The notes beneath the pieces were generated by a model, which made no database searches, had not been told where the DNA came from, and saw only the letters and a program-made list of their open reading frames with translations. Source: a virus. Taken from it: a DNA stretch of 64,000 nt. Position 1 is the first letter of the stretch; the number at the start of each line of letters is the position of its first letter. Below, piece by piece: positions 7,753 to 62,118 of this stretch. The position numbers were made by a program, and so were the translations under genes. The DNA is taken from the IMG/VR virus record IMGVR_UViG_3300025099_000012, positions 1 through 64,000 of that record. One strand, 5' to 3'.

Positions 7753-8319
7753 GTGGATATGAAAAGCCCTAAAGGTGACCCAACATATATTAAGAATAAG
7801 GAACGATTCTTTATGGATGTTGCGCTATCAATTAGCAAAGCATCAACACATCCAAAAGCACCAGGTGGATGTATTATTGTTCGTGATAGGGAGATTATTG
7901 GAGATGGTAGAAGCTTACTTACAGACAGTATGGTTGAGATCGATTGTATCTCATATGCCATTGCAGCAGCAGCTAAAGCAGGAACTCCTGCAATAGGAGC
8001 CGTAATCTATACGACGCGGTATCCATTCTCGACATCTATATTTCAAGCTCACATGATGGGAATAAAGAAGATTATTCTTTTAGCTCATGATTGGGAGCCT
8101 TACTACAAAGAAGAGTTCAGACGTTCAGCACGTTTGGCACGCGAATTAAATGTGGCAATTGAGCCACTTTTCCTAGACAAAGATCCAAGATTTACTAAAA
8201 ATTCTAATGACAGAGATATTGACGAAACTCTCTTCCCGCAAGCAAACCCGTTTGCACCAGATGAATATGATCCAAACAATGCAACAGATACCTTCGATGA
8301 AGACACAACTACTCTTTGA
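7753..8319 (+). CDS. dCMP deaminase-fold protein lacking zinc ligands
   Basis: This 188-residue protein starts with GTG at 7753 (ATG at 7759 is an alternative). Residues about 18-110 follow the cytidine/dCMP deaminase fold: FMDVALSISKASTHPKA, GGCIIVRDREIIG, then MVEIDCISYAIAAAAKAG where active enzymes have VHAE, then YTTRYPFSTSIFQ where they have PCxxC, then GIKKIILL. Both halves of the zinc site (HAE and PCxxC) are replaced, so deamination is very unlikely. An acidic 60-residue tail follows. It overlaps the exonuclease gene by 23 nt. A regulatory or scaffolding role in dNTP metabolism is possible. Confidence 0.65.
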   Translation: MDMKSPKGDPTYIKNKERFFMDVALSISKASTHPKAPGGCIIVRDREIIGDGRSLLTDSMVEIDCISYAIAAAAKAGTPAIGAVIYTTRYPFSTSIFQAHMMGIKKIILLAHDWEPYYKEEFRRSARLARELNVAIEPLFLDKDPRFTKNSNDRDIDETLFPQANPFAPDEYDPNNATDTFDEDTTTL

Positions 8320-8821
8320 CCTTGAATCCACTGGATTTCTTCGACGTGGATCAACTATTCACTGTATGGTTATGCGTGATGCTGTCGATAGCAGTACTCA
8401 TGTATTTGATCATCAGCCTGAACGAGCGCTAATTCAAGGTATTAAACAACTTGAAGAAGCAGATATAATTATCGGTCACAATATTATTGGATACGATATC
8501 CCTTTGCTGAAAGAGCAGTATCCAGATTTTGAACCTAAAGGTCAAGCAATTGATACATTGGTTCTCAGTCGTTTGTTCTATCCGCATATTAAAGATAGAG
8601 ATCATGAGCGTAGACCTCTAGGTATGCCCCAACGCCTGTATGGGAGACATTCACTTGAGGCTTGGGGTTACAGACTTAAGTGTTTCAAAGGCGACTTCGG
8701 TAAGCACGACGGTAACTTTGCTGTTTATACCCCTGAGATGCTGGATTACTGCATTCAGGATACCGAGGTCACCCTCAAACTATGGCAACTTATGCAACGG
8801 AGAATGAACGACTATGCCTGA
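8297..8821 (+). CDS. 3'-5' exonuclease subunit of a split T7-type DNA polymerase
   Basis: This 174-residue protein starts at the ATG at 8297; the frame extends further upstream but the sequence there is not exonuclease-like. It matches the N-terminal exonuclease domain of T7 gene 5: DLEST (ExoI), IIIGHNIIGYDIPLL (ExoII), DTLVLSRLFYP, HSLEAWGYRL and YCIQDTEVT (ExoIII). It stops after the exonuclease domain. The next gene starts inside its stop (ATG at 8814) and the polymerase domain is a separate gene from 9046. It provides proofreading, presumably bound to the polymerase. Confidence 0.88.
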   Translation: MKTQLLFDLESTGFLRRGSTIHCMVMRDAVDSSTHVFDHQPERALIQGIKQLEEADIIIGHNIIGYDIPLLKEQYPDFEPKGQAIDTLVLSRLFYPHIKDRDHERRPLGMPQRLYGRHSLEAWGYRLKCFKGDFGKHDGNFAVYTPEMLDYCIQDTEVTLKLWQLMQRRMNDYA

Positions 8822-31973: not shown

Positions 31974-32408
31974 TTAACTAATAAAGATTAAGTCCTCTTC
32001 AATTAATTGATCCCAATTAACCCGTGGGATGTTCTCAAGCTGCTTGAGATTAGCAAACCTCTCACCACTCAGAGACATACGTAGTTCAACTATCTTTTTG
32101 GCTGTAGCAAAACCTACACCTGGTAACCGTTTTGCAATCTGTTCTGCTTGAGCTGCATTCAAATTCAATCGCATATCTTCAATAGGAACAATCGGATCAG
32201 GCAATGGCTCTTCAGGAAGCTCTTGCTCAAGCTGTGCAATCTTAACCATTCGACCTTTTTCACGGTCATACGGAACAAGTTGATCCAATGTCATGAATGT
32301 GACGTTACCTCCAGCATCTTTTACCATCGCAAATTCTTTATCGTGAGTACTGATAAACTCAACTAGTTTGCCAGTCTTACTATCTTGAAATAACTTTTGA
32401 TCGGACAT
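31974..32408 (-). CDS. helix-hairpin-helix (ComEA-like) protein
   Basis: This 144-residue protein starts at ATG 32408; a longer upstream extension of the same frame runs through the terminator and the decoration gene and is rejected. The N-terminal half is beta-rich. The C-terminal 65 residues are a double helix-hairpin-helix: LNLNAAQAEQIAKRLPGVGFATAKKIVELR, then LKQLENIPRVNWDQL. Read in short pieces, the LPGVGxxxAxxIV core is the DNA-binding HhH signature. Possible role in packaged-DNA binding or connector completion. Confidence 0.75.
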   Translation of the reverse strand: MSDQKLFQDSKTGKLVEFISTHDKEFAMVKDAGGNVTFMTLDQLVPYDREKGRMVKIAQLEQELPEEPLPDPIVPIEDMRLNLNAAQAEQIAKRLPGVGFATAKKIVELRMSLSGERFANLKQLENIPRVNWDQLIEEDLIFIS

Positions 32409-32443
32409 ATTTTTTGGGGTATTCCTTTTCATATTATAAGCAC

Positions 32444-32472
32444 AAAAAAAGCGCCTCATAAGAGACGCTTTG
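32444..32472 (-). terminator. strong terminator after the capsid/decoration genes
   Basis: On the minus strand AAAGCGTCTC-TTAT-GAGGCGCTTT plus further T residues follows the decoration gene. The symmetric A/T tracts could make it bidirectional. Confidence 0.9.
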
Positions 32473-32490
32473 GTTATCTGATTGTTATTA

Positions 32491-33132
32491 TCAGGTGCCT
32501 TGACCAGCTTCAATTCCGTAAGGAATGTGAGCATCGCTAGCGTCAGGAGCCGGAGCAGGACGGTAGTAGCAGATCTCGACCAGAATGGCGGAGGGGCTCT
32601 TACGGTCTGCACCCACAGAAGGGTTCTGCTCAGCAGTGCAGTTTGCAGAAGTAATGACCTGAACGGTGGTATCAGCAGAAGTGCTAATAGCAGTTCCGTT
32701 GACAATGCCCAACATTGCGGAGGCAGCGCCATCAGCAGGGAAGAACTTGTCAGCAGCTGCAGTCAGTGTTACTTCACTGCCAGTGTCACCAGGAGCGTTA
32801 CCACCAAGAGCAACAATCTTGATGGTGTTACCAGATGCAGTAGCTTTAACGCCAGGTGCATTCAATGCGGTGCGATAAACAACGGAATTCTTAGGAATCA
32901 CGAATGCTTTATCGGTACGTGGCTTGTCATCCTGACGAAGATCAGGTGACAGAACCTTCAAGCTATAGGTGCCAGCAGACAGGACACCACCGGAAAGAGT
33001 TCCAGCGTTGTCAGGATCTAAAACGAGAGCACCGACGATACGGTAGAACTCAACACCTGGGAGAGCCTCAACACCCTGTTCGCGATATGCGTTCAGGTGG
33101 GCTACATAATTACCGGGAAAAATTACGGACAT
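32491..33132 (-). CDS. head decoration-like protein
   Basis: This 213-residue protein is encoded immediately downstream of the major capsid gene. It starts SVIFPGNYVAHLNAYREQG and continues with beta strands (EFYRIVGALVLDPDN, GTYSLKVLSPDLR) and a variable Ala/Gly/Thr-rich region, ending with ILVEICYYRPAPAP. Position and composition fit a capsid decoration/cement protein expressed at high level, consistent with the strong terminator after it. Confidence 0.65.
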   Translation of the reverse strand: MSVIFPGNYVAHLNAYREQGVEALPGVEFYRIVGALVLDPDNAGTLSGGVLSAGTYSLKVLSPDLRQDDKPRTDKAFVIPKNSVVYRTALNAPGVKATASGNTIKIVALGGNAPGDTGSEVTLTAAADKFFPADGAASAMLGIVNGTAISTSADTTVQVITSANCTAEQNPSVGADRKSPSAILVEICYYRPAPAPDASDAHIPYGIEAGQGT

Positions 33133-33148: not shown

Positions 33149-34297
33149 TCAATAAACGAAAGAGTAACCAACCGTAATGAAATCGCGGTTAAGCGTTTCA
33201 AAACCGGCAAACAGCGACCAGATCATGATGATGAAACGGCTGAAGTCATCGTTGTTATTCAACAAAATCTGAGCGTTGTTACCACCAATACCCACGCCAA
33301 CAGCCTGAGGGCCGAAGAAGACAAGTTGAGATGCTGTGTAATCAGCAGCTCCTGCAGCTTCGTCAGCAACAATCAAGTTGTATGTGGTTTCGGGCAGGTT
33401 GGTGGACTCAAACCAACGGACACCCTCAAAGAGGAAGCCAGTAGGCATAACGGGTTGACCGGCAACAAAGCCAGCTTGGCCGTAAGCAGGTCCCATGCCT
33501 TGGTAGAAGTTGGCGTTGGGAGCCTCAGCAGGGTTCATAGGATTAACAATCCCTTGACCCGGATAACGAGCGATCTCGCGGAAGTCTGCGTTCTGACGCA
33601 GATGCATCATTGCGGTTGGATCGACGATGCAACGGTAGTAACCATCAGCGAAGGTAGGAACGTTGCGCTTACGCATGTCCTTAACCACTTCGAGGAGGTC
33701 AGTCTTTACATCAAATTTGGCGGACTCACCAGCGGCGTACGTCACACCCAAGGTTCCACCAGCACCGCCTTTAGGCTTGCCACCTGGCAGGTAGTAACCA
33801 CCTTGATCTTTGCTGGCTTGACCAGCAGCTTCTGCCTTCAGCAGTTCGTTTGCGAAGACACGATCACGCCAACGACGATAGTCATCCAGCAGGGTCAAAG
33901 AACCGATGCTTTGGTGGAAGACATTCAGGTTGCCAGTATCAAGTAGCAGACGCTGAGCAGTAATCAGGGTTTCACGAGCCACCTTAAAAGTAGAAGGCTG
34001 TGAAGCATCGCGGGAATCAGCGGGACCGGTGTACTCGCGGAGAGTAACCAGTACTTTGTCCTTGACGATGTTGCGTGCGGAGGCGGATCCAAGTGTTTGA
34101 TCGGCAGTCCGCTCACGGGACTCCTTAGTGCCAGGTTTGCCCCAGAAGCGATACCGGTCTAACTGAACAGTTTGACCAGGTTGCTTGGAGAAATCATGAA
34201 CGACCACAGGTTCAACGGCCATCTCAATGATGTATGCCGGATGCGGACGATATAGTTCAGCACCAAGAAGCTTCGGAAAATCATTATCAATCCACAT
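33149..34297 (-). CDS. major capsid protein (HK97 fold, N4 gp56-like)
   Basis: This 382-residue protein has blocks typical of phage major capsid proteins: GQTVQLDRYRFWG (N-arm), LREYTGPADS, a spine-helix region (VFHQSIGSLTLLDDYRRW), GYYRCIVDPTAMMHLRQN and FREIARYPG, and a C-terminal LVFFGPQAVGVGIGG. The Q-T-V-x-L-x-R-Y and Y-x-C-I-V-D/P-x-x-M-x-x-L-R arrangement resembles the N4 gp56 family. It is preceded by GGAG and by an inverted repeat (34331-34349) and followed by the decoration gene. Confidence 0.88.
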   Translation of the reverse strand: MWIDNDFPKLLGAELYRPHPAYIIEMAVEPVVVHDFSKQPGQTVQLDRYRFWGKPGTKESRERTADQTLGSASARNIVKDKVLVTLREYTGPADSRDASQPSTFKVARETLITAQRLLLDTGNLNVFHQSIGSLTLLDDYRRWRDRVFANELLKAEAAGQASKDQGGYYLPGGKPKGGAGGTLGVTYAAGESAKFDVKTDLLEVVKDMRKRNVPTFADGYYRCIVDPTAMMHLRQNADFREIARYPGQGIVNPMNPAEAPNANFYQGMGPAYGQAGFVAGQPVMPTGFLFEGVRWFESTNLPETTYNLIVADEAAGAADYTASQLVFFGPQAVGVGIGGNNAQILLNNNDDFSRFIIMIWSLFAGFETLNRDFITVGYSFVY

Positions 34298-34788: not shown

Positions 34789-35269
34789 TAGTCTTATTCT
34801 TTCTGGTGTTAAAGGTGTATCTAAGCACACTGGTAAAGAACTGCTGCTGACTCGTCCAAAGCGTGGTGGCGATACACATAAACTTAAGGAATGGTGGCAC
34901 GGTACTAATGGTGCACAGTATGTAAATTGCACAATTTTTGATGTCACTGCTAATGGACAAACAGTTAAATTAGCTGTCGCAACAGGGGACTCTTCGTTCT
35001 TGCGTATTGATCATGATGGTAAATTGAATTTTGCTTTCTATGGTGCACGTGGCGTTACTCGTGCGGCACTCTTTAGCTCTGATCTAAAGCTTATTGAGCA
35101 CTATGTCTTGCCGAGTATTAGTAAAGGTAAAGTCATGACTGTCAAACCACATGGCTCTGAAGAGAAGCCCTCCTCTATAGTCAAGCCTGAGCCGAGACCT
35201 CTCGCACCTAAGCCTGCTAAGAAAGTAGCAAAGAAGACTATTAAAGCGTTAATTAAAGACGAAGACTAG
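34781..35269 (+). CDS. hypothetical protein with basic tail
   Basis: It encodes 162 residues. The N-terminal 110 are mixed alpha/beta (LKEWWHGTNGAQYVNCTIFD, VKLAVATGDSSFLRID), followed by a Pro/Lys-rich tail (KPAKKVAKKTIKALIK) that resembles histone-H1-like or DNA-binding tails. It overlaps the homing endonuclease gene, so it may travel with it or be co-expressed. Confidence 0.65.
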   Translation: MADSLILSGVKGVSKHTGKELLLTRPKRGGDTHKLKEWWHGTNGAQYVNCTIFDVTANGQTVKLAVATGDSSFLRIDHDGKLNFAFYGARGVTRAALFSSDLKLIEHYVLPSISKGKVMTVKPHGSEEKPSSIVKPEPRPLAPKPAKKVAKKTIKALIKDED

Positions 35270-35955
35270 AAGCTCGGACGGTCTGCAAGTCGCATGATGT
35301 AGCTTTTGTCTTCAATTGACTCAAGCGACTTGTATTCGTTGCCAACATCAATCTGAATTTTATAAGGAAGGCGTTTAGTGTTTCTAGCATGGATGCCTAC
35401 GTAGAAGAAGTCTCGTGGCTTGATATACATCTTGTCGTAGGGATGTTCTTCATTCTCACTTGTATATAGTCGAACATCAAGATAGCTGTTGTTATAGATA
35501 TTTGATGCTTTAAGATTTTCAAGATCTACACTCAGGTATGAATCTGATCCAATTGCCGGAAGAGTAAGTGGAGGCGTAGCAGCTGACGAATAGCCTGGAT
35601 CTGATTCGGCACCCGCTTGATCGAGACTACTGGTTACATAACCTGTGTCGTCTTCTTCGCTGTAGAAATCAATATCTGCTTTGATATAACCAGGCTCCAG
35701 ATATTCCTTAAGAACAATGTCGCCAATAATATTCAGCTTTACTTTGATGAAATGATTTTCTACACCAAATAAACCTACTGCATCTTCATACTGCAGTGAG
35801 AATGGTACAACATTGACCTCCGCTACTTCAGCTTTGGATATACTCGCACCAGTCGCATAGTTGAGAGATTTACTTGATGAATACCGATCTGGATTAGTGT
35901 TGTCACTAGCAGAATATGTATTGTTTTGCCTCAGTATTTCTGTAGTGACATTCAT
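35266..35955 (-). CDS. hypothetical virion protein
   Basis: This 229-residue, beta-rich protein has a Ser/Asn-rich N-terminus, then LFGVENHFIKVKLNIIGDIV, Asp/Glu-rich loops, and a C-terminal part (HPYDKMYIKPRDFFYVGIHA). Between capsid and sigma-factor genes; its promoter box lies at 35975-35984 just inside the end of the sigma gene region. No family recognised. Confidence 0.65.
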   Translation of the reverse strand: MNVTTEILRQNNTYSASDNTNPDRYSSSKSLNYATGASISKAEVAEVNVVPFSLQYEDAVGLFGVENHFIKVKLNIIGDIVLKEYLEPGYIKADIDFYSEEDDTGYVTSSLDQAGAESDPGYSSAATPPLTLPAIGSDSYLSVDLENLKASNIYNNSYLDVRLYTSENEEHPYDKMYIKPRDFFYVGIHARNTKRLPYKIQIDVGNEYKSLESIEDKSYIMRLADRPSF

Positions 35956-35974
35956 GTCTGCATTTATTCAATAA

Positions 35975-35984
35975 CTCTATTGTA
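35975..35984 (-). promoter_or_regulatory. putative phage promoter -10 box
   Basis: The minus strand reads TACAATAGAG, 20 nt before the start at 35955 and immediately after the sigma-factor stop. Confidence 0.5.
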
Positions 35985-36926
35985 TTAAAGATACTCGCTT
36001 ACACTATTGGACTGTTCTCGTAGATTTTTAAGAGCTTTATTTTCTAGAGTTCTGACTCGATCACGGCTCATGTTCAACATTTGTCCAATTGCAGTCATGG
36101 ACATTGGTTCTAGTATTTCTTCCCCAATCCCATATCGCATACTAATTACTGCAGCCTGCATTTCAGGTAGATCTTGAATGAGCTCACGAATGTCTTCCTT
36201 AATGAATTGTTGTTCTAGCAGCATCTCAGGTAATTGTGTTTTATCTTCTAGTAGATCTATTAGAGCGGTATCTCGGTTCTCTCCAATTTTTATTTCAAGT
36301 GATGTTGGTTGCCGAGCTTTACACATCAAATCTTTAATGTCATCAACAGACAGGTTGAGGTATTCAGACAACTCAAATACGTTTGGTAGTTGACCATTGA
36401 TTTGACTTAGTTCACGCTGGGCTTTCTTAAGTTTGTTGAGGTTCTCAGTAACATGGATCGGTAAACGAATCGCCCTCGATTTTTCAGCGATAGCGCGAGT
36501 GATCCCTTGACGGATCCACCAGTAGGCGTAAGTAGAAAACTTGTAACCACGACCAGGATCAAACTTCTCCACGCCACGGACCAAGCCAATGGTACCTTCC
36601 TGGATAATATCCAATAGGTCCATGTTGCGCTTAGTATATTTTTTGGCGACTGAAACAACAAGCCGGAGGTTTGCTGTAACCATTTTGTCTTTTGCCTTTT
36701 CACCATCTCTAATTTGCTTACGAAGTTCCTTGTAAGGAATGTCCATTACTTGAGAAAGATCTTTTGTATCGTCTAGTGCTAACTCTTCTTTGATCGCTTT
36801 AATTTCCATTAGACGTTGTACATTTCTACCTAGCAGGATTTCTTCGTCATGCTGAAGTAAGGGAATTCTTCCAATGTCACGAAGATATGCACGGACAGAA
36901 TCTCCAGTACTCTTTGTAGATGCCAT
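35985..36926 (-). CDS. RpoD-family (group 1/2, cyanobacterial-type) sigma factor
   Basis: This 313-residue sigma-70 protein has region 1.2 (DSVRAYLRDIGRIPLL), regions 2.1-2.4 (MVTANLRLVVSVAKKY, DIIQEGTIGLVRGVEKFD, FSTYAYWWIRQGITRAI), region 3 (RLPIHVTENLNKL), and region 4 with a helix-turn-helix (SMTAIGQMLNMSRDRVRTLE, KALKNLR). The near-perfect conservation of region 2 is characteristic of host primary-like group 2 sigmas of cyanobacteria rather than T4 gp55-type factors. A good AAGGA site precedes ATG 36926. It probably redirects host RNA polymerase to phage promoters. Confidence 0.93.
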   Translation of the reverse strand: MASTKSTGDSVRAYLRDIGRIPLLQHDEEILLGRNVQRLMEIKAIKEELALDDTKDLSQVMDIPYKELRKQIRDGEKAKDKMVTANLRLVVSVAKKYTKRNMDLLDIIQEGTIGLVRGVEKFDPGRGYKFSTYAYWWIRQGITRAIAEKSRAIRLPIHVTENLNKLKKAQRELSQINGQLPNVFELSEYLNLSVDDIKDLMCKARQPTSLEIKIGENRDTALIDLLEDKTQLPEMLLEQQFIKEDIRELIQDLPEMQAAVISMRYGIGEEILEPMSMTAIGQMLNMSRDRVRTLENKALKNLREQSNSVSEYL

Positions 36927-36973
36927 ATTTCCTTTTTGCTTATATTTAATTCTATCAGCCTATTTGATATTTA

Positions 36974-37264
36974 TCAACCATATATTCGTGCAAATCTTGT
37001 ATTTTCTCCTGGGTTTTCGCCAGACTCAAGTGACTCAACCGCCATTGCTTGGGCAGCATGCTCGTTAAACCCTTTCTCCTTATAATTGTTCAAGTTCCTT
37101 TCATACTGCTCTATTGAGCTTTCAAAGTCTTCGCCGTGGTGAATCATCTCAGCTGCCATTTGATTTGCAGCTTGATCCTCTACTCCATCTGATTTTAGAT
37201 GTTTCCATATTGCCTGAAAAATCTCAGGATCATTTGCATAATCACCCGCTTTTCTGTTATTCAC
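36974..37264 (-). CDS. small acidic hypothetical protein
   Basis: It encodes 96 helical, charged residues (EIFQAIWKHLKSDGVED, AANQMAAEMIHHGEDF, EHAAQAMAVESLESGE). Two similar helices suggest an internal duplication around the A-A-x-x-M-A motif. It lies between the sigma gene and virion genes. Function unknown. Confidence 0.6.
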   Translation of the reverse strand: MNNRKAGDYANDPEIFQAIWKHLKSDGVEDQAANQMAAEMIHHGEDFESSIEQYERNLNNYKEKGFNEHAAQAMAVESLESGENPGENTRFARIYG

Positions 37265-37305
37265 TTGGCAACACTTTGAATCTCTATTTATTCTATCAAT
37301 TACTA

Positions 37306-37629
37306 TTAAGCGAATCCTTTAAGGCGTTCCCGTAGTAAAGCTTGTTCGGGCACAGATGCCATTTTAAAAGCAGCATAGTTTGGGTCTGCCATTCTTGCCG
37401 TTTCACTGTCATTACCTTTAGCTGCCAAAATTGCCATTGCAACATGACCTGACTTCTGCTGGTTAGCTATTTGTGCGGCACTAAGACCAGCAACACGTTC
37501 CATGCCTTCCCTGGCTGCAAGTCCTTGAGTTTCATTAGTAATTGCCTGTTGTCCGGCATTACTGGCTAGTAGCTGACCTTGAATTTTTTGTTGGTATGAA
37601 TTTGCATCCATATCGTTGGAGTACATCAT
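37306..37629 (-). CDS. Ala/Gln-rich hypothetical protein
   Basis: It encodes 107 residues, almost all helix (SYQQKIQGQLLASNAGQQA, GMERVAGLSAAQIANQQ). The Ala/Gln composition resembles scaffolding or ejected internal virion proteins. No recognised family. Confidence 0.6.
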   Translation of the reverse strand: MMYSNDMDANSYQQKIQGQLLASNAGQQAITNETQGLAAREGMERVAGLSAAQIANQQKSGHVAMAILAAKGNDSETARMADPNYAAFKMASVPEQALLRERLKGFA

Positions 37630-37671
37630 TTCTACAATTAGCTTAATTCTGTTACTTATATTGTACGTAAA

Positions 37672-38046
37672 TTAAATACGTCCTTGTTCGGGACCATCTA
37701 CGTAATCAACTGCTGCTAATAGACCAGCTAGTCCACCAGCTCCGGCTAGCACTTCACCCGCCATTCGCTTTTTAATTTCTTGTTTGAGGGCGTGTTTGCC
37801 ACCCTCTTTAAGTAATTCTCTTACAAGAGTGTCAAGGTTTTTGTTTTCAGGACGTGAGGCAATCTCAAGTGCTGCAGCTACATCCTCTGGCGTTGGATTA
37901 CGACCTAAGATCTTTTTGAGAGTTTCAGGTGTGAGATCCTTCTGATCGTGAAATACATATTCCAAGTCAGGATTAGAAGGCAACGACCCCGAAGAGCCGA
38001 TGCCTAGTTCTCTCGCTCGTCTGCCAGAGTTGTAGTAACTCATCAC
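37672..38046 (-). CDS. hypothetical protein of the head operon
   Basis: It encodes 124 residues: LTPETLKKILGRNPTPEDV, ALEIASRPENKNLDTLVRELL, and an apolar glycine-containing C-terminus (GEVLAGAGGLAGLLAAVDYV). It overlaps the scaffold-like gene by 4 nt (ATGA). Might be a small internal virion protein. Confidence 0.6.
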   Translation of the reverse strand: MMSYYNSGRRARELGIGSSGSLPSNPDLEYVFHDQKDLTPETLKKILGRNPTPEDVAAALEIASRPENKNLDTLVRELLKEGGKHALKQEIKKRMAGEVLAGAGGLAGLLAAVDYVDGPEQGRI

Positions 38047-39032
38047 ATGTCTTGGATAAGAGCCTTAGCTTGCAGAGCACCTTGAGGAGCCTGTGAGAGA
38101 TAACGCCATGCGTTCTCAGGGGAGCTGTCCATCATTTCGCTGAAGGAGCCCCAGAAATCATTTGCCTGGTTGACCTGACGGCCGGGAGTAGGCATATCCA
38201 TTTGAGGACGCTGGAAGTTCTGTGGAACTTGTCCTTGCTCTTGAGCTTGGATCTCAGCTTCGAACTGAGCACGAGCTTCTTGTTGCTGACGTACTTGTGT
38301 TTCGTCAGGGGTCTCAGTGGGATAAGGACCTTGAGGACCGAAGAACTCATTGACGTAATCAGCCAACACATCAGGGTTGGTGAGCATCAGGTTCATTGCA
38401 CCGTTCTCCTCGTTGGAAGCTTCGAATGCACTGAGGACATTGTTGCCACGCTGAACCTGCTCGATCAGTGCATCTTCAACTGCACATGCGTAGGTGTTTA
38501 GGAGAGCAGGAGCTTCAGCACCAAAGTGCTCAAGAACCTCAAGACTTTCTCCGCTGATTCCGCTTAGGTACTGATCCTGAGCCTGACTTGCTCCGTGCTG
38601 CACCGCTTGCTGCACCAGGCTGCTGACGTCGGATTCCGTATAGCTCTGGGTTGAAGCTTGGGGCTGCGAAATCTGCTGAACCTGTGGGGCCATTGAAGCC
38701 CAACTGGGCTGAGTAGTTGCCTGAGGCGTCGGTGTTGTCTGGTATGCCGAGGGTGAAACCTGGGCCGGGGAGGGGCTGGACGTATTCAGGCTTGCGCTGA
38801 GCGCCTGGAACGCCTGCTGCCATGGATTGCCCTGAGTTGCTGCCGAACCCTGCGGGGCCTGGGCCGATGCCTGGTAAACCGGTGCCTGCGGTGCCACTGG
38901 TTGTCCCATTGATGCCGGGGAGGTTGGGGACTGGCTCGTCGCGTACTGGCTCGCCGCGCTGGGCACGTAGTTGGTCGGCGTTGCTGAGCTCGTCGGGGAT
39001 ACTTGTTGCGCTGGCTGGCTTGTAACTTCCAC
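38043..39032 (-). CDS. putative scaffolding protein, N-terminus dual-coded with portal
   Basis: This 329-residue protein starts at GTG 39032 with AAGGAG 10 nt upstream (39043-39049), inside the portal gene. The N-terminal about 130 residues are Gln/Ser/Pro/Ala/Thr-rich. The rest is helical (DVSSLVQQAVQHGASQAQDQ, LNTYACAVEDALIEQVQRG) with an acidic Gln/Glu helix near the end, as in phage scaffolds. Its first 494 nt are also the end of the portal gene in another frame. Position between portal and capsid fits a scaffold. Confidence 0.75.
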   Translation of the reverse strand: MEVTSQPAQQVSPTSSATPTNYVPSAASQYATSQSPTSPASMGQPVAPQAPVYQASAQAPQGSAATQGNPWQQAFQALSASLNTSSPSPAQVSPSAYQTTPTPQATTQPSWASMAPQVQQISQPQASTQSYTESDVSSLVQQAVQHGASQAQDQYLSGISGESLEVLEHFGAEAPALLNTYACAVEDALIEQVQRGNNVLSAFEASNEENGAMNLMLTNPDVLADYVNEFFGPQGPYPTETPDETQVRQQQEARAQFEAEIQAQEQGQVPQNFQRPQMDMPTPGRQVNQANDFWGSFSEMMDSSPENAWRYLSQAPQGALQAKALIQDM

Positions 39033-40800
39033 TGTAACTTAACTCCTTACGTAAGAATTCTAAAGATCGATATAGGAACCCTGTCATGTCAAGGTTCGGG
39101 TCAGAAGCCAAAGGCATGTCTGGCATCTGTGGATGAGGCAATTGATAGAACTGCCCAAGTAAACTAATAAAACTGTTAATACTACTTTGTGTTTGCTGGA
39201 CCATTCTGAAGGGGAATCCGCTTAACATTGCAGCCCGTTCTTCATCAGTTTTACCAGGGAATAGATATTTGAGAGCTTCAATAGAATCAACTCCCAATTC
39301 TTGAAGGTTGCGAACGACGATGCTGTTGTTGAGCAGATCTTCAGTGCTTTCTTCAAAAACTTCTCCCATCCAACGCCAACTGACTTTTAATGCCCCATCA
39401 GGGACAAGACCAGTTACACCAGGGGGTATTTCACCTGCGTCTAGTTTAGCACGCATCTCTTTATTACGTTTTTCAAGGAACTTTTGGTATTCCTTTTCAT
39501 ACTTATTAAATGCCCTTTCATATTCTTTCTCATCTTGAAAATCTTCGGGTAACGGCAAATCAGGTTCCGTTAAATTGATTGCTTGGCTAAACGAATCATT
39601 GAAATTACGCTCTTCTGCATAAATCATCATTGAGAACAACGAGCACAGCCCATAAGTAAATAGAGCTCTTGCTTTTTTCTCTGCTGTTGCGGCTACACGT
39701 CCATATAGTGTTTTAATTTCATATGCTGTGGCAGCCGTTCTGATTTCAATGTCATCAACGCCTCCAAGTGCAAGCCGGATTTCTGAACGATACTGTTTTA
39801 CGTATAAGTTCTGATCTCCTGAAACACTATCCGGTGTCATATATCCAACACGATCAGTTGGTTCTAGGTTTGCAATTACTCGTGGAACTTTGATCTGACC
39901 ATCCAAAGTACCAGCACCGAATGGTTGGCTAACACGAGTACTTGCTCTACCTGAACCACCAATTGGAGCAAACCCCGCCTGAGAGCTGATAGTAGGGCGG
40001 AAACTATTGTCATCACCACTATCAAGAATGTCATGACGTGGACGACTTGATATAAGTGTGGGGTTTCCAAAGAACTTCATGTTCTTTCGGATATTTCTTA
40101 CAAGTTCATCGTGATAGAGGATCTGATTAGCTAACCAATCGAATTCTCCGTTACCTGTTGCTTCACCTGTACAGTCCATGTGATTAAACACTTCGACTGC
40201 AGGAATGAACCCAAGGCTATTAGTCAGTACCTCTGTTTGACCGGGCATCTTGAAGGGCATTGCACCCATTTGGTTTGAAAACTCAATTTTCTCGTCTGAA
40301 ATCGTTTGCTCAATGCGATCTTTGTAGACTTTTAATTGAATCCATTTCTTTTTTCCATTTGACCCATTAGCTCCTGGCAAATTGTCTGCTAAGCCAATTG
40401 TCTGCTGGACATTAAATGAATAGACAAGGACTAATGACTCAAGATCACCAGCTTGGTCCCTATATGCTCGATAACTATCCTTTGGGAAGTAAAGAACTTG
40501 ATAACTTTCACCAGCAGGGCGGAAATAAAATAGACCTTGACCGTCACAAAGGAAATAATCAACAATACTTTCGAATTTCATCTCCAGCATGTTCTCTTCG
40601 CAGATCTTGGCTAGGAACTCACGTCGTTTACCAAAAGAATCCTGCTCTGCATAAAATTCAATTCCTCTCCGAAGCATAAACGTACGCATTTGGGCGAGAT
40701 GTGAAGACACAATCATTGTGTCTACAGATAAATCACCTCGTCGCTCTTTAGCTGCTAGTAGTATTTGCTGAAATTCACTATTGATTGAATTCATTGCCAT
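38539..40800 (-). CDS. portal protein
   Basis: This 753-residue protein has a central region typical of podovirus-type portals: MRTFMLRRGIEFYAE, FLCDGQGLFYFRPAG, LYFPKDSYRAY, ILYHDELVRNIRKNMKFFGNP, and LNLYVKQYRSEIRLALGG-like DDIEIRT blocks, then a long helix (EKEYERAFNKYEKEYQKF) and LNNSIVVRNLQELG. The C-terminal 165 residues (Pro/Gly/Ser-rich) are encoded in the 494 bp shared with the scaffold-like gene. It forms the dodecameric packaging vertex with the terminase at 42 kb. Confidence 0.82.
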   Translation of the reverse strand: MAMNSINSEFQQILLAAKERRGDLSVDTMIVSSHLAQMRTFMLRRGIEFYAEQDSFGKRREFLAKICEENMLEMKFESIVDYFLCDGQGLFYFRPAGESYQVLYFPKDSYRAYRDQAGDLESLVLVYSFNVQQTIGLADNLPGANGSNGKKKWIQLKVYKDRIEQTISDEKIEFSNQMGAMPFKMPGQTEVLTNSLGFIPAVEVFNHMDCTGEATGNGEFDWLANQILYHDELVRNIRKNMKFFGNPTLISSRPRHDILDSGDDNSFRPTISSQAGFAPIGGSGRASTRVSQPFGAGTLDGQIKVPRVIANLEPTDRVGYMTPDSVSGDQNLYVKQYRSEIRLALGGVDDIEIRTAATAYEIKTLYGRVAATAEKKARALFTYGLCSLFSMMIYAEERNFNDSFSQAINLTEPDLPLPEDFQDEKEYERAFNKYEKEYQKFLEKRNKEMRAKLDAGEIPPGVTGLVPDGALKVSWRWMGEVFEESTEDLLNNSIVVRNLQELGVDSIEALKYLFPGKTDEERAAMLSGFPFRMVQQTQSSINSFISLLGQFYQLPHPQMPDMPLASDPNLDMTGFLYRSLEFLRKELSYSGSYKPASATSIPDELSNADQLRAQRGEPVRDEPVPNLPGINGTTSGTAGTGLPGIGPGPAGFGSNSGQSMAAGVPGAQRKPEYVQPLPGPGFTLGIPDNTDASGNYSAQLGFNGPTGSADFAAPSFNPELYGIRRQQPGAASGAARSKSGSGSVPKRNQRRKS

Positions 40801-41769: not shown

Positions 41770-43308
41770 TTATAAATTAAAGCTGTCACTATTGTAGTCC
41801 ATCTGTAAACTACCTCTTCTAAGTAGTCCACCCATAGTTAATACCATTGAGTCCACAGCGTCATCATGTGGTGAATGTCCAAAGTTCAGTAGTTCTTCTT
41901 CAAGTACATCCCACTTACGCCATTTATTCCAGACAACTTTTTTATGTTCATATAAACCAAGCACGCCTCTTAGTCTTGCAAGCTTATCTCCTTTGAAACC
42001 TTTTACTGGAGAAACTGAAAGATTATAAAGTGCACGTTGCTCTAGGATTATTCTTTTGAAATCTCCTTCAAAAGAGTTTTGATAAGCAACCGCTTCAGGC
42101 CATATGATGCATGGGGACATTGTTGGAAAGAAGTCACCCTCGTCATTTTCAAGAACAATATTCCAATCAGCAAGCATTTGACAGAGTAAATCCATCTTGT
42201 CGAGATTTCCCATTGTCCGGGCACGACGTTGATCAATCATGAATAGCTTGCCATCTTTAATCCCACCTAGGGTCATGACTGTCCAGTCATTCTTTTCCTT
42301 TAGTCCAGCACTTAAGTCAATACCCACACCAAGGCAGTCGTAATCCTCTGGCACTTCACCTTTAATGATTAATTCCGGTGATATCCCAACATCCGTTGAC
42401 TTAACAGCTGTATTTAAATACTGATATGCAAATGCAACTCTATCTTCTGTCTTTCGTTCATTCAGATATTTCATTGACCAGAACTCTGGCCAGTATGAAC
42501 GTTGTTTACCATCTTGGTCAGTTATGACTGCTCGCTGAACAATCTGTTTCCATTTGTTCTTTGGAACGAATAACGTGGCGTGAATGTCGTCATAGTGGAA
42601 GCGGGTTCCCAAACAAATAGCCCGTGCACCTTGAAACATCGTTGGTGCGATAACGTTAGACCACGTCTGCTCCATCTCACGGCGAATGTCTGGGTTGTTG
42701 ATTGAAATGGCAGATTTGATAGGGTCATCAATAAGCACCAACTGCGATCGTTTAGAGGTGATTGCACCTTTGAGACCACCACACGCAATTGTGAAAGCTT
42801 CTTCACCCGCTGTGTCAATTCCTGCAAACTCATAATCAATAGACCAGTATTCATCTGAACGTTTTATTTTTGAGAGCCTTACCATTGGGAAGATCTCTCT
42901 GTATTTATTACTTGTAAGTATCCCTTTGATTGTTGCCGATTTCGCTCGGCTTATGTCTACCATGTAGGCGATGTACAGAATACGTAGCATCTTCTTGGCA
43001 GCTGCATGTCGTCCAATCATCCAGGCTGCAAACAAACCAAGGACAGTACTTTTTGCAGAACCACGTGGTGCGAGGATCGATGTATTTGGACCTGCGATTC
43101 CAATCAGGCATTCACTATCTTCTCCAGTACATAACTCTGTATGCCACTCCAGCATATGTTTTGCAGGAGCTTTTCCCATGAACTTACAAAAGTCTTGGAA
43201 GCTGTCTCTTGCTTTTAGAACATCTTCACTTGGTGGTTTGACAGTTACCTTTGTAGCTGTCATCAGTGCTATTCGTCTGTACGCTAATGATGCGCTAGGT
43301 ATTGCCAT
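41770..43308 (-). CDS. terL: terminase large subunit
   Basis: This 512-residue packaging motor has an ATPase domain with Walker A APRGSAKST (about 80), Walker B QLVLIDDP (about 197) and an adjacent coupling motif, and a C-terminal RNase-H-like nuclease with acidic motifs GVGIDLSAG (about 325) and HDDAVDSMV (about 485). It drives DNA into the prohead through the portal and cuts concatemers. It lies between a small-subunit candidate and the portal on the same strand. Confidence 0.92.
   Translation of the reverse strand: MAIPSASLAYRRIALMTATKVTVKPPSEDVLKARDSFQDFCKFMGKAPAKHMLEWHTELCTGEDSECLIGIAGPNTSILAPRGSAKSTVLGLFAAWMIGRHAAAKKMLRILYIAYMVDISRAKSATIKGILTSNKYREIFPMVRLSKIKRSDEYWSIDYEFAGIDTAGEEAFTIACGGLKGAITSKRSQLVLIDDPIKSAISINNPDIRREMEQTWSNVIAPTMFQGARAICLGTRFHYDDIHATLFVPKNKWKQIVQRAVITDQDGKQRSYWPEFWSMKYLNERKTEDRVAFAYQYLNTAVKSTDVGISPELIIKGEVPEDYDCLGVGIDLSAGLKEKNDWTVMTLGGIKDGKLFMIDQRRARTMGNLDKMDLLCQMLADWNIVLENDEGDFFPTMSPCIIWPEAVAYQNSFEGDFKRIILEQRALYNLSVSPVKGFKGDKLARLRGVLGLYEHKKVVWNKWRKWDVLEEELLNFGHSPHDDAVDSMVLTMGGLLRRGSLQMDYNSDSFNL
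41787..41796 (-). promoter_or_regulatory. putative phage promoter -10 box inside terL
   Basis: The minus strand reads TACAATAGTG, 26 nt before the start at 41761. It lies within the last codons of the terminase gene. Confidence 0.5.
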
Positions 43309-59213: not shown

Positions 59214-59423
59214 ATGGCAATCACCTACGACTTCACCATTGTTGATACCAACATCACTGGTTTGTCTAAGGTGGTTCCTCAGAACGAAGCTGCGTTCTGC
59301 TATCTCGTAGATGAGACCGATTACACCGTTTTTGCTGACGGTTCCACTGCTCTATTCGAAGAGCGTGTCGGTGACTTCATCTCCGATGCAGGCCACGCAC
59401 ACATGTGCTGCGATATCGCTTGA
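59214..59423 (+). CDS. 69-residue array protein
   Basis: ATG 59214. Mixed strands and loops (AITYDFTIVDTNITGLSK, FCYLVDETDYTVFADG), C-terminus AHMCCDIA with a Cys pair. Opens with MAITY, as does the micro-protein at 57081. Unknown. Confidence 0.65.
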   Translation: MAITYDFTIVDTNITGLSKVVPQNEAAFCYLVDETDYTVFADGSTALFEERVGDFISDAGHAHMCCDIA

Positions 59424-59436
59424 GTTAACCACCATT

Positions 59437-59458
59437 GGCGCAAATTTGCGCCTTTCTC
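59437..59458 (+). terminator. palindromic terminator
   Basis: GGCGCAAA/TTTGCGCC is a perfect 16-nt palindrome followed by TTTCTCATTTTTT. It contains no loop signature of the other elements. Confidence 0.8.
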
Positions 59459-59483
59459 ATTTTTTGTAATTTATGAGGTCTAT

Positions 59484-59876
59484 TTGACACAATCGTTTAA
59501 CGTTCCAGATGGCATCTCTATGGATGAGCTTAAATCTCATCTAAATGATGCGAGAAATGAATCAGATATTCACGAAGATTGCACCTGTGAACGTGCAGAT
59601 GCGACAGAAGATTTAATGGAGCTTGCTTCAGAGCAAATCGCATTAACTGGACGTATGACAGACGATCCTGTTGCATTTCACAAAATCATGATGGTCATGA
59701 TTGTATCCAATATGATCGACTTTCACATGAATGTTGCAACTAAAGCAGGTGGAATGGACGATGGTACGTCTCATGCATGGATTCGTGATGCTGGCAAATT
59801 ACAAGCAGTCATGAACATTCTTACGTCTATTTCATGTGGTCCTGATGACCCATATGTAACAGTATCGGGCAACTGA
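59484..59876 (+). CDS. 130-residue helical array protein
   Basis: TTG start at 59484 with GAGG 8 nt upstream. Acidic and mostly helical (MDELKSHLNDARNESDIH; DLMELASEQIALTG), with a Met/His-rich helix (HKIMMVMIVSNMIDFHM). A CTCE motif near residue 35 may bind metal. Unknown function. Confidence 0.65.
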   Translation: MTQSFNVPDGISMDELKSHLNDARNESDIHEDCTCERADATEDLMELASEQIALTGRMTDDPVAFHKIMMVMIVSNMIDFHMNVATKAGGMDDGTSHAWIRDAGKLQAVMNILTSISCGPDDPYVTVSGN

Positions 59877-59886
59877 TTGCCTCAAT

Positions 59887-59918
59887 AGCCGCTTATCAGC
59901 GGCTTTCTTTTTACATGT
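59887..59918 (+). terminator. array hairpin element (loop TATC)
   Basis: AGCCGCT-TATC-AGCGGCT then TTCTTTTTACATGTTCTTT. The loop and the TGTTCTTT signature are both retained. Confidence 0.85.
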
Positions 59919-59937
59919 TCTTTATCAAAGTTTTCCT

Positions 59938-60423
59938 TTGAACAACACTTCAAAACGCTACGCTCAGTTCAACGCTCTTACCGTCACCGGTCGCATCTTC
60001 AATGCTGAGATCGTAGACAACAAAGGCAACAAGTTCTTGAGTGTATCCGTAATCAGCACTGCCTCCAAGGATGGCGCTGACTTGGTCTACACCTTCAACA
60101 ACTCCAATGGCTTGATGAGCCTCTTTGAGAAGGGTTTCTTCTGCAGAGGACGTCAAGTGACTATCACTGGACACATTCACAACGTTTCTGAGGTTTACAC
60201 CACACGAACAGGTGAAGTCACTCTGCGTAAGCGCCCTGAGATCCATCTCACAGGCGTAAACGTACTTGATGGTGGCCTTGGTCCTATGCCTGCCGCAGAA
60301 GGACAAGCACAGCGCTCCTCAATAGGCTCTGTCATCACTCAAGTAGGAACACCTGAGGTGGATGAAACTCCATCTATGGAGCCTGTTGAAGAAGCAGAAG
60401 AAAAGGTTGAAGCTCTTTTTTGA
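59938..60423 (+). CDS. single-stranded DNA-binding (OB-fold) protein
   Basis: This 161-residue protein starts with TTG 59938. The N-terminal 110 residues look like an SSB OB fold: FNALTVTGRIFNAEIVDNKG, FLSVSVISTASKDG, FFCRGRQVTITGHIHNV, VTLRKRPEIHLTGV. A Pro/Gln linker and an acidic tail ending EKVEALF follow. An acidic C-terminus with a final hydrophobic tip is the SSB partner-binding hallmark. Together with the protein at 770 and the fragment at the window start there are up to three OB-like proteins. It belongs to the small-gene array. Confidence 0.7.
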   Translation: MNNTSKRYAQFNALTVTGRIFNAEIVDNKGNKFLSVSVISTASKDGADLVYTFNNSNGLMSLFEKGFFCRGRQVTITGHIHNVSEVYTTRTGEVTLRKRPEIHLTGVNVLDGGLGPMPAAEGQAQRSSIGSVITQVGTPEVDETPSMEPVEEAEEKVEALF

Positions 60424-60752: not shown

Positions 60753-61762
60753 TGCTTGCCGTTCTTACCGTTACCGTTGATCGCCTTATTCATATAGACC
60801 TTGTCTGCAATGACAGTGACTGCCTTACCTTGGTCAGATGTATTGATATCACCGTCAAGTGCTTGACGATAAGCACTTAAAACTGAATCATCTGCAAATC
60901 TTTTGCCTAGCATGTTATTTACTTTAGAATTTAATTCCATTTTAAGTTCTTTATTCTTTTGACGAGTTTCTTTTTGTTTCTGTAATTTACGTAAATACTG
61001 TATTTCTTTAATTTCAGCAAGGTTTTGTGTTAAATCATCTGCATTAGTAACGTAACGTCTACCTTGCAATTGATCTAAAACCGCCAAAGCCATTTCTGAA
61101 CCTTCAGCATTTTGTAAAATTTGATTTAAATGACCTCCTTGTAGTCTTAAATCTTCTTTTAAGTGGGTTAAAACATCACTTTCAGAGTTAGGAACAATAT
61201 GACCTTGATTTGGTTTTTGATGCGTTATTAAATCTTTATATACACGATCATATCCCAAACCTAAATCATAAGCATATTGTGCCATTACTCCTGGTTGTTC
61301 GGCAACATTACGAGCTCCTTCATGCATTCCATGCCTACCACCAAACTTTGCTAACGTTTTTGCTGACATCAATGCTTTTACTGCTTGTTCAAGTTCAGCA
61401 ATTAATTTTGGATTAGTATCCATAGGCAGTGAAGGCATATCACCTCCTGATAGTTCACTTACTAAATATCGCTGAAGTGAGTCATTTTGTTGATTGTGAG
61501 TTAATACTGGATCGCTTTCCTTGTATTTAGACAACGTCCATTTATCTGGTCTTTCTGGATCAGGAATAATATCGTGATAATCTCCTATTTCAGCTCTTAA
61601 AACTTCCCTTTGGGATAACTCTTTAAGAAGCTTATATATCTCTGGGTCATCTTTAAGATTGAATCCATCTGCAATTTCATCAAAGTCTAAATCTCTAGTA
61701 TCCGTATTTAAACGTGATACATCTTGCCTAATTTTTGCTTTACGTAAATTTTCAGATAGCAC
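60749..61762 (-). CDS. hypothetical protein with HNH-like motif
   Basis: This 337-residue protein starts with GTG 61762. N-terminal half helical (DFDEIADGFNLKDDPEIYKL). Near residue 185-222 it has HQKPNQGHIVPNSES and EDLRLQGGHLNQIL, resembling the GHI...N-L-R-L...H-x-N arrangement of some HNH nucleases, without the Cys pairs. The C-terminal third is a Lys/Gln/Glu coiled coil. TACAAT (minus strand) lies near 61820. Nuclease function is a hypothesis. Confidence 0.55.
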   Translation of the reverse strand: MLSENLRKAKIRQDVSRLNTDTRDLDFDEIADGFNLKDDPEIYKLLKELSQREVLRAEIGDYHDIIPDPERPDKWTLSKYKESDPVLTHNQQNDSLQRYLVSELSGGDMPSLPMDTNPKLIAELEQAVKALMSAKTLAKFGGRHGMHEGARNVAEQPGVMAQYAYDLGLGYDRVYKDLITHQKPNQGHIVPNSESDVLTHLKEDLRLQGGHLNQILQNAEGSEMALAVLDQLQGRRYVTNADDLTQNLAEIKEIQYLRKLQKQKETRQKNKELKMELNSKVNNMLGKRFADDSVLSAYRQALDGDINTSDQGKAVTVIADKVYMNKAINGNGKNGKH

Positions 61763-61847
61763 CCATATCTATATACCTATGTGTTGTTTATTGATTACAT
61801 AAGTAACATCTCCTTTAAATATTGTATTTAATTTCTATATCTAACTT

Positions 61848-61885
61848 GCCGCTGACTCGCGGCTCTATGTTTTAGTGTCCTTTGA
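61848..61885 (+). terminator. array hairpin element (loop TGACTC)
   Basis: GCCGC-TGACTC-GCGGC followed by TCTATGTTTTAGTGTCCTTT. It restarts the plus-strand small-gene series after the convergent minus-strand gene. Confidence 0.8.
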
Positions 61886-61896
61886 CACTTAGATCT

Positions 61897-62118
61897 ATGG
61901 AACAACAAATGATCCTGATTTCTAAACCAGAAGTTGAAAGACTTTTATGCAAACTTCAGCGTGCAGAGGGTTATTGCCGTAATGCACGTTCGCCTATTCC
62001 TTTCAACCCTGAAACGGACATCCATGCAGAACCGTGGGAGTTCTTTGTCGGATCCTCTGGATTCGCAGGAATGACTATGCGTGATGTAATCCAATCACTC
62101 GAATCACATCTGAACTAA
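61897..62118 (+). CDS. 73-residue hypothetical protein
   Basis: ATG 61897. Helix (PEVERLLCKLQRAEGYCRN), then a loop (NPETDIHAEPWEFFVGSSG) and AGMTMRDVIQSLESHL. Its TAA overlaps the next ATG (TAATG at 62116-62120). Unknown. Confidence 0.65.
   Translation: MEQQMILISKPEVERLLCKLQRAEGYCRNARSPIPFNPETDIHAEPWEFFVGSSGFAGMTMRDVIQSLESHLN

Follow-up and report, generated by a model that had tools for sequence, protein, structure and literature searches.

Portal and scaffold-like genes in the lineage of Synechococcus phage S-EIV1 very probably share a dual-coding overlap of 0.5-0.6 kb

In a tailed phage genome, the same 494 nt appear to hold both the end of the portal protein gene and the first half of the gene for a scaffold-like head protein. 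We consider it very likely that this is a true dual-coding region, which would encode the portal tail and the N-terminal half of the scaffold-like protein, the latter being started independently inside the portal gene. The DNA analysed, referred to here as the window, is a stretch of 64,000 nt that is part of an 82.3-kb IMG/VR virus record (IMGVR_UViG_3300025099_000012). Both genes lie on the minus strand, the portal gene at 38539..40800 (753 aa) and the scaffold-like gene, which has a GTG start within the portal gene, at 38043..39032 (329 aa). The overlap is in the +1 frame and occupies 38539..39032 on the same strand, from the scaffold start GTG (39030-39032) to the portal stop TGA (38539-38541), and the limits and length given in a preliminary description of this DNA were right to the base. 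The same holds for the AAGGAG that had been reported as correctly spaced inside the portal gene: this Shine-Dalgarno-like motif is found at 39043..39048 on the minus strand, within the portal codons Lys-Glu and 10 nt before the GTG. A start of the scaffold frame farther upstream is impossible, since an in-frame TAA (39039..39041, minus strand) sits 6 nt before the GTG. The overlap forms a local GC peak of 0.63-0.66, against 0.40-0.45 nearby, and is thus GC-richer than its surroundings as had been remarked; constraint on two frames is not the sole cause, however, as the G/P/A/S- and Q/P/A/S-rich composition counts as much.

Scans of viral contigs and genome contigs yielded about 330 loci in four clades, namely M (that of the window), E (that of S-EIV1), F and G, with a portal identity of 45-50% between most clades. 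A homology-free script followed each portal to its stop and then sought a +1 ORF spanning that stop. Such an ORF was present in 282 of the 283 scored loci, in all four clades and in the isolate S-EIV1; it shares 455-638 nt with the portal end, the median overlap being 494 nt in M, 605 nt in E, 527 nt in F and 491 nt in G. The sole exception, L107, has a premature portal stop and is a contig-end fragment, the locus ending soon after; the arrangement is found in every one of the 282 relatives in which the region is readable in full. The remaining sense frame overlaps the portal end by no more than 4 nt in the scored loci. No outgroup devoid of the overlap was found, as all four clades carry it, and among annotated phages outside S-EIV1 no portal relative was recognisable by sequence.

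The lineage is widespread and consists of aquatic tailed phages. A 2017 survey placed S-EIV1 in a marine genus-level group that accounted for approximately 3.3% of the mapped cyanophage content (PMC5332604). Several contigs of the S-EIV1-related lineage (L164-L173) are binned in metagenome-assembled genomes of Bacteroidetes, Euryarchaeota, Blastopirellula and Rhodobacteraceae, which most likely reflects binning contamination rather than hosts.

The start site of the scaffold-like frame is fixed, lying always 64 or 67 nt past the portal core in the 282 loci, that is, at one of two adjacent sites. The start codon is GTG in clade M, ATG in clades E and F, and ATG in clade G save for three GTG; ACAAAAGGAGATGAGTTATGCAGGACGCT is an invariant block in clade E. 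These start codons dictate codon choice in the portal. The portal Tyr is encoded by TAT in 170 of 170 unique ATG-type sequences, compared with 43-54% TAT elsewhere in the portal, and the portal Ser by AGT in all 70 GTG-type sequences, compared with 23-31% elsewhere, counts that come from related sequences and hence do not represent independent events. With regard to initiation signals, AAGGAG or a close variant is present in 72/72 loci of clade M, and motifs of this type range from strong (M and E) through moderate (F) to weak or absent (G). As clade G nevertheless retains the start codon, the latter is kept more widely than the Shine-Dalgarno motif. A scaffold-frame stop is found 3-6 nt ahead of the start in nearly all loci, the exceptions L027 and L079 lacking it with the GTG retained, and the stability of the RNA structure at the start is not unusual (z -1.2 to 0). 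In clade M, no other widely conserved start codon occurs from the start of the overlap to the conserved domain of the scaffold-like protein; translation of this domain must therefore begin within the portal gene. Placing the start after the portal stop was rejected, given that clade M has no widely conserved start ahead of the conserved domain and that the annotated start of S-EIV1 falls inside this domain.

When the portal codons are shuffled, the +1 frame stays open in only 0-0.9% of the trials for each sequence. With purely synonymous reshuffling, however, it stays open in 0-49% of trials, which makes for a weak argument in the GC-rich members and renders a single genome inconclusive. The case against chance therefore rests on conservation and selection: a chance ORF is ruled out because this ORF recurs, with its start site and frame relation, in 282 of the 283 loci and is under selection.

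Selection was estimated with our own OLGenie-style count, in which sites and changes are classed by their effect in both frames, with transitions weighted 3 and a codon bootstrap. The ratios are dNN/dSN for the portal and dNN/dNS for the scaffold frame, and a pseudo +1 frame, read in the 600 nt of portal gene ahead of the overlap, is the control. Over close pairs, the portal and scaffold ratios were 0.36 (0.22-0.54) and 0.28 (0.17-0.44) in clade M, 0.49 (0.36-0.67) and 0.27 (0.19-0.39) in clade F, 0.50 (0.39-0.63) and 0.34 (0.26-0.42) in clade G, and 0.70 (0.50-1.02) and 0.29 (0.22-0.39) in clade E, with intervals that are somewhat optimistic because pairs share ancestry and only codon columns were resampled. 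The pseudo-frame controls gave 0.86-1.40, the clade M control being 1.40. The third frame of the overlap, taken as a further control, had ratios of at least 2.5, which shows that the low ratio belongs specifically to the scaffold frame. Synonymous change also declines inside the overlap, approximately threefold for the portal (from 0.44-0.48 outside to 0.13-0.15) and approximately twofold for the scaffold frame (from 0.40-0.46 to 0.16-0.25). Both frames are thus open and under purifying selection in clades M, F and G, and the portal is marginal in clade E, where the estimate from divergent pairs is 0.87 (0.65-1.17) and the portal tail is accordingly open and compositionally conserved, not clearly selected. 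In every clade the scaffold frame is the more constrained of the two. The preliminary description had named dN/dS in both frames as a check on its claim of dual coding, and the claim held, with the arrangement kept in four clades and, apart from the marginal portal of clade E, constraint in both frames. As a guide to which frame is the older, codon usage is ambiguous: the portal frame is slightly nearer to the usage of the phage than the scaffold frame, both being poor fits confounded by composition.

A weaker reduction of portal synonymous change reaches approximately 100 codons upstream of the overlap (39033-39400 in the window) and is strongest in clades E and F. The region is not spanned by any other conserved sense frame, and the reduction might reflect an RNA or DNA element or a low overall divergence.

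The identity of the first product as a portal, proposed from the letters alone, is confirmed by its fold. In a profile search the protein matches phrog_20475, a virion structural protein (E=1.9e-181), and the top PDB matches listed by Foldseek are all portals, among them those of 80alpha, T7, SU10 and cyanophage P-SCSP1u (E down to 2.9e-8, top probability 1.00 among the matches listed). The name is well supported by these portal-only matches, though the sequence profile search found no portal family and the structure model, one of a set of predictions made without S-EIV1, is modest (pTM 0.48). The portal fold is carried by residues 1-589, and the tail encoded inside the overlap (590-753) is mostly of pLDDT below 50 and rich in G, P, S and A. 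Seven of its residues (R612, E672, P678, G681, G707, D710 and P714) are invariant in 57 sequences. The last 30 residues, encoded at 38542..38631 on the minus strand, are basic; their net charge is +3 or higher in all loci of the four clades, with medians of +5 to +8.

The scaffold-like protein has an acidic, disordered and helical build. In its model, residues 1-68 and 84-132 are disordered, residues 70-83 form a helix and the C-terminal half is helical. The conserved helix of the overlapped N-terminal half, residues 69-83 (NPWQQAFQALSASLN; 38784..38828, minus strand), carries N69, P70, A74 and L82, which are invariant in 57 sequences. The N-terminal half is rich in Q, P and S and contains no lysine or arginine in the protein of the window, and the median number of lysines plus arginines in the overlapped half is 0-3. 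As for its surroundings, the gene is placed between the portal and the major capsid protein (MCP) genes. The large terminase gene lies upstream in the same head module (41770..43308, minus strand; phrog_38, E=3.7e-68) and the MCP gene downstream (33149..34297, minus strand; phrog_1357, E=8e-17; 66% identical to an S-EIV1 ORF). In S-EIV1, its clade E and clade F, the MCP gene is found approximately 0.7-0.9 kb past the scaffold-like gene. Clade M has extra genes between the two, at 35266-38046 in the window, including an RNA polymerase sigma factor (35985-36926). Elsewhere in the window, two minus-strand ORFs (31974-32732 and 32491-33132) overlap by 242 nt, probably not a real overlap because the downstream ORF probably starts later than its first ATG, and two plus-strand ORFs (7753-8319 and 8207-8821) overlap by 113 nt.

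Identification of the second product as the procapsid scaffold, in line with its earlier label, is plausible from its position and its build, but neither its sequence nor its fold matches a known scaffold or any relative of known function, for which reason it is called only scaffold-like here. The absence of such matches leaves some room for a real overlapping gene that encodes another head protein, such as a minor capsid or internal protein. We hold this to be possible but the less probable reading, as the order of portal, scaffold-like gene, small gene(s) and MCP corresponds to the usual position of a scaffold and the acidic, disordered and helical build also speaks for one. Such an outcome would change the name only, leaving dual coding unaffected.

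The two frames need not matter equally. The scaffold frame is the more constrained throughout and the clade E portal estimates include 1, as would be expected if this frame alone mattered and the portal tail were a tolerated by-product of a lost stop codon. This seems improbable given that clades M, F and G have portal ratios clearly under 1, that the seven tail residues are invariant, that the portal C-terminus is basic in every locus and that the portal frame is interrupted in 98-99.9% of trials when the scaffold codons are reshuffled synonymously.

With regard to how the second frame is reached, the +1 relation of the frames and the UCU-UGA at the portal end of most clade M, F and G loci would also suit +1 ribosomal frameshifting, which would yield a portal-scaffold fusion in place of internal initiation. 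A programmed +1 shift would be expected to show a conserved shift site and no independent start. Instead, a start codon is found at a fixed site in all loci, where it forces portal codon choice, and a start is also indicated by the scaffold-frame stop that precedes it by 3-6 nt. Moreover, UCU-UGA is not universal; it follows from the conserved Ser-Leu-Glu codons of the scaffold, and the common contexts of clade E do not include it. Frameshifting is therefore quite unlikely, marginally more so than a tail without function. A sequencing or assembly frameshift that artificially lengthened one gene, a common source of apparent long overlaps in single records and a concern of the preliminary description, can be dismissed as next to impossible, since independent assemblies adding up to 282 loci and the isolate S-EIV1 share the structure and the portal frame aligns with its homologues through the tail.

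Under dual coding with internal initiation, ribosomes on the portal gene would read through to 38539 and produce a portal of 753 aa whose long, disordered tail has a basic patch at its end. Other ribosomes would initiate at the GTG at 39032 in the +1 frame, aided here by the AAGGAG, to give the 329-aa scaffold-like protein, whose Q/P/S-rich N-terminal half would be written in the same DNA as the portal tail. Translation of both products is what we infer from the gene sequences. The overlap may be tolerated because both segments are mostly disordered and, once both tails had become useful, point mutation could not have separated the genes. Overlapping viral genes are enriched in disorder-promoting residues (PMC6195259). 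A more speculative idea, to which we attach a small likelihood, is that the overlap itself is functional: the basic portal tail and the acidic, Lys/Arg-poor N-terminal half of the scaffold-like protein, made side by side from one mRNA, might bind each other in procapsid nucleation, with the coupling in the DNA maintaining their co-evolution.

S-EIV1 (KJ410740) is the only isolate among annotated phages with a relative of the portal, scaffold-like or major capsid protein. The identities to the window are 44% for the portal, 35% for the scaffold-like protein, 55% for the terminase and 66% for the MCP. It has the same overlap, 554 nt long, with an ATG start one codon upstream. Its GenBank record carries a truncated scaffold gene and misses the overlap: the ORF, which starts within the portal gene, spans 59287-60264 (L001:5751-6728; 325 aa) and is annotated only from 59863, inside the conserved domain. 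In the record of the sole isolate, gene calling has thus cost a head protein over half of its length. The MCP homologue of S-EIV1 (60784-62010; L001:7248-8474; 383 aa) is not a single annotated gene either; in its place the record shows a hypothetical gene on the minus strand, together with a short piece downstream.

When genes overlap out of frame over a long stretch, the usual explanation is the pressure on small genomes; otherwise such overlaps are put down to faulty annotation. In phiX174, a member of the Microviridae, protein B is an internal scaffolding protein. Genes B, K and E of this phage lie in frames that differ from those of the genes they overlap (PMC3608072). The B/A pair resembles the present one in that a phage gene is read in another frame than the gene it overlaps, but phiX174 is a 5.4-kb ssDNA phage with B nested in the replication gene A, whereas the S-EIV1-related lineage comprises tailed dsDNA phages of approximately 80 kb with a terminal overlap, both partners being head-assembly genes. 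In lambda C/Nu3 and herpesvirus UL26/UL26.5, the scaffold is produced by internal initiation within another head-assembly gene, in frame and with shared sequence. A probable scaffold start inside another head-assembly gene would be common to these systems; unlike those nested scaffolds, however, the scaffold-like gene is in the +1 frame in all loci, so the portal and the scaffold-like protein have DNA in common but not a single residue. The ordinary terminal overlaps of dsDNA viruses are likewise same-strand +1 overlaps of neighbours. Across 12,609 virus reference genomes, +1 overlaps have a median of 14 nt (IQR 8-26), and longer genomes carry shorter overlaps (PMC8903798). In the S-EIV1-related phages, by contrast, they measure 455-638 nt and are fixed across the family. 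Overprinting has long been known from phiX174; as a variant of it, a long overlap kept fixed between two head genes in tailed phages of about 80 kb is unusual. No description of this portal/scaffold overlap was found in the literature searched, which did not cover the S-EIV1 genome paper (ISME J 2015).

Phages of approximately 80 kb thus keep an overlap of 0.5-0.6 kb between two morphogenesis genes across clades whose portals are about 45-50% identical. The family offers hundreds of natural sequences for measuring the evolution of two proteins under shared DNA, and it makes testable the idea that long overlaps may be retained for reasons besides compression.
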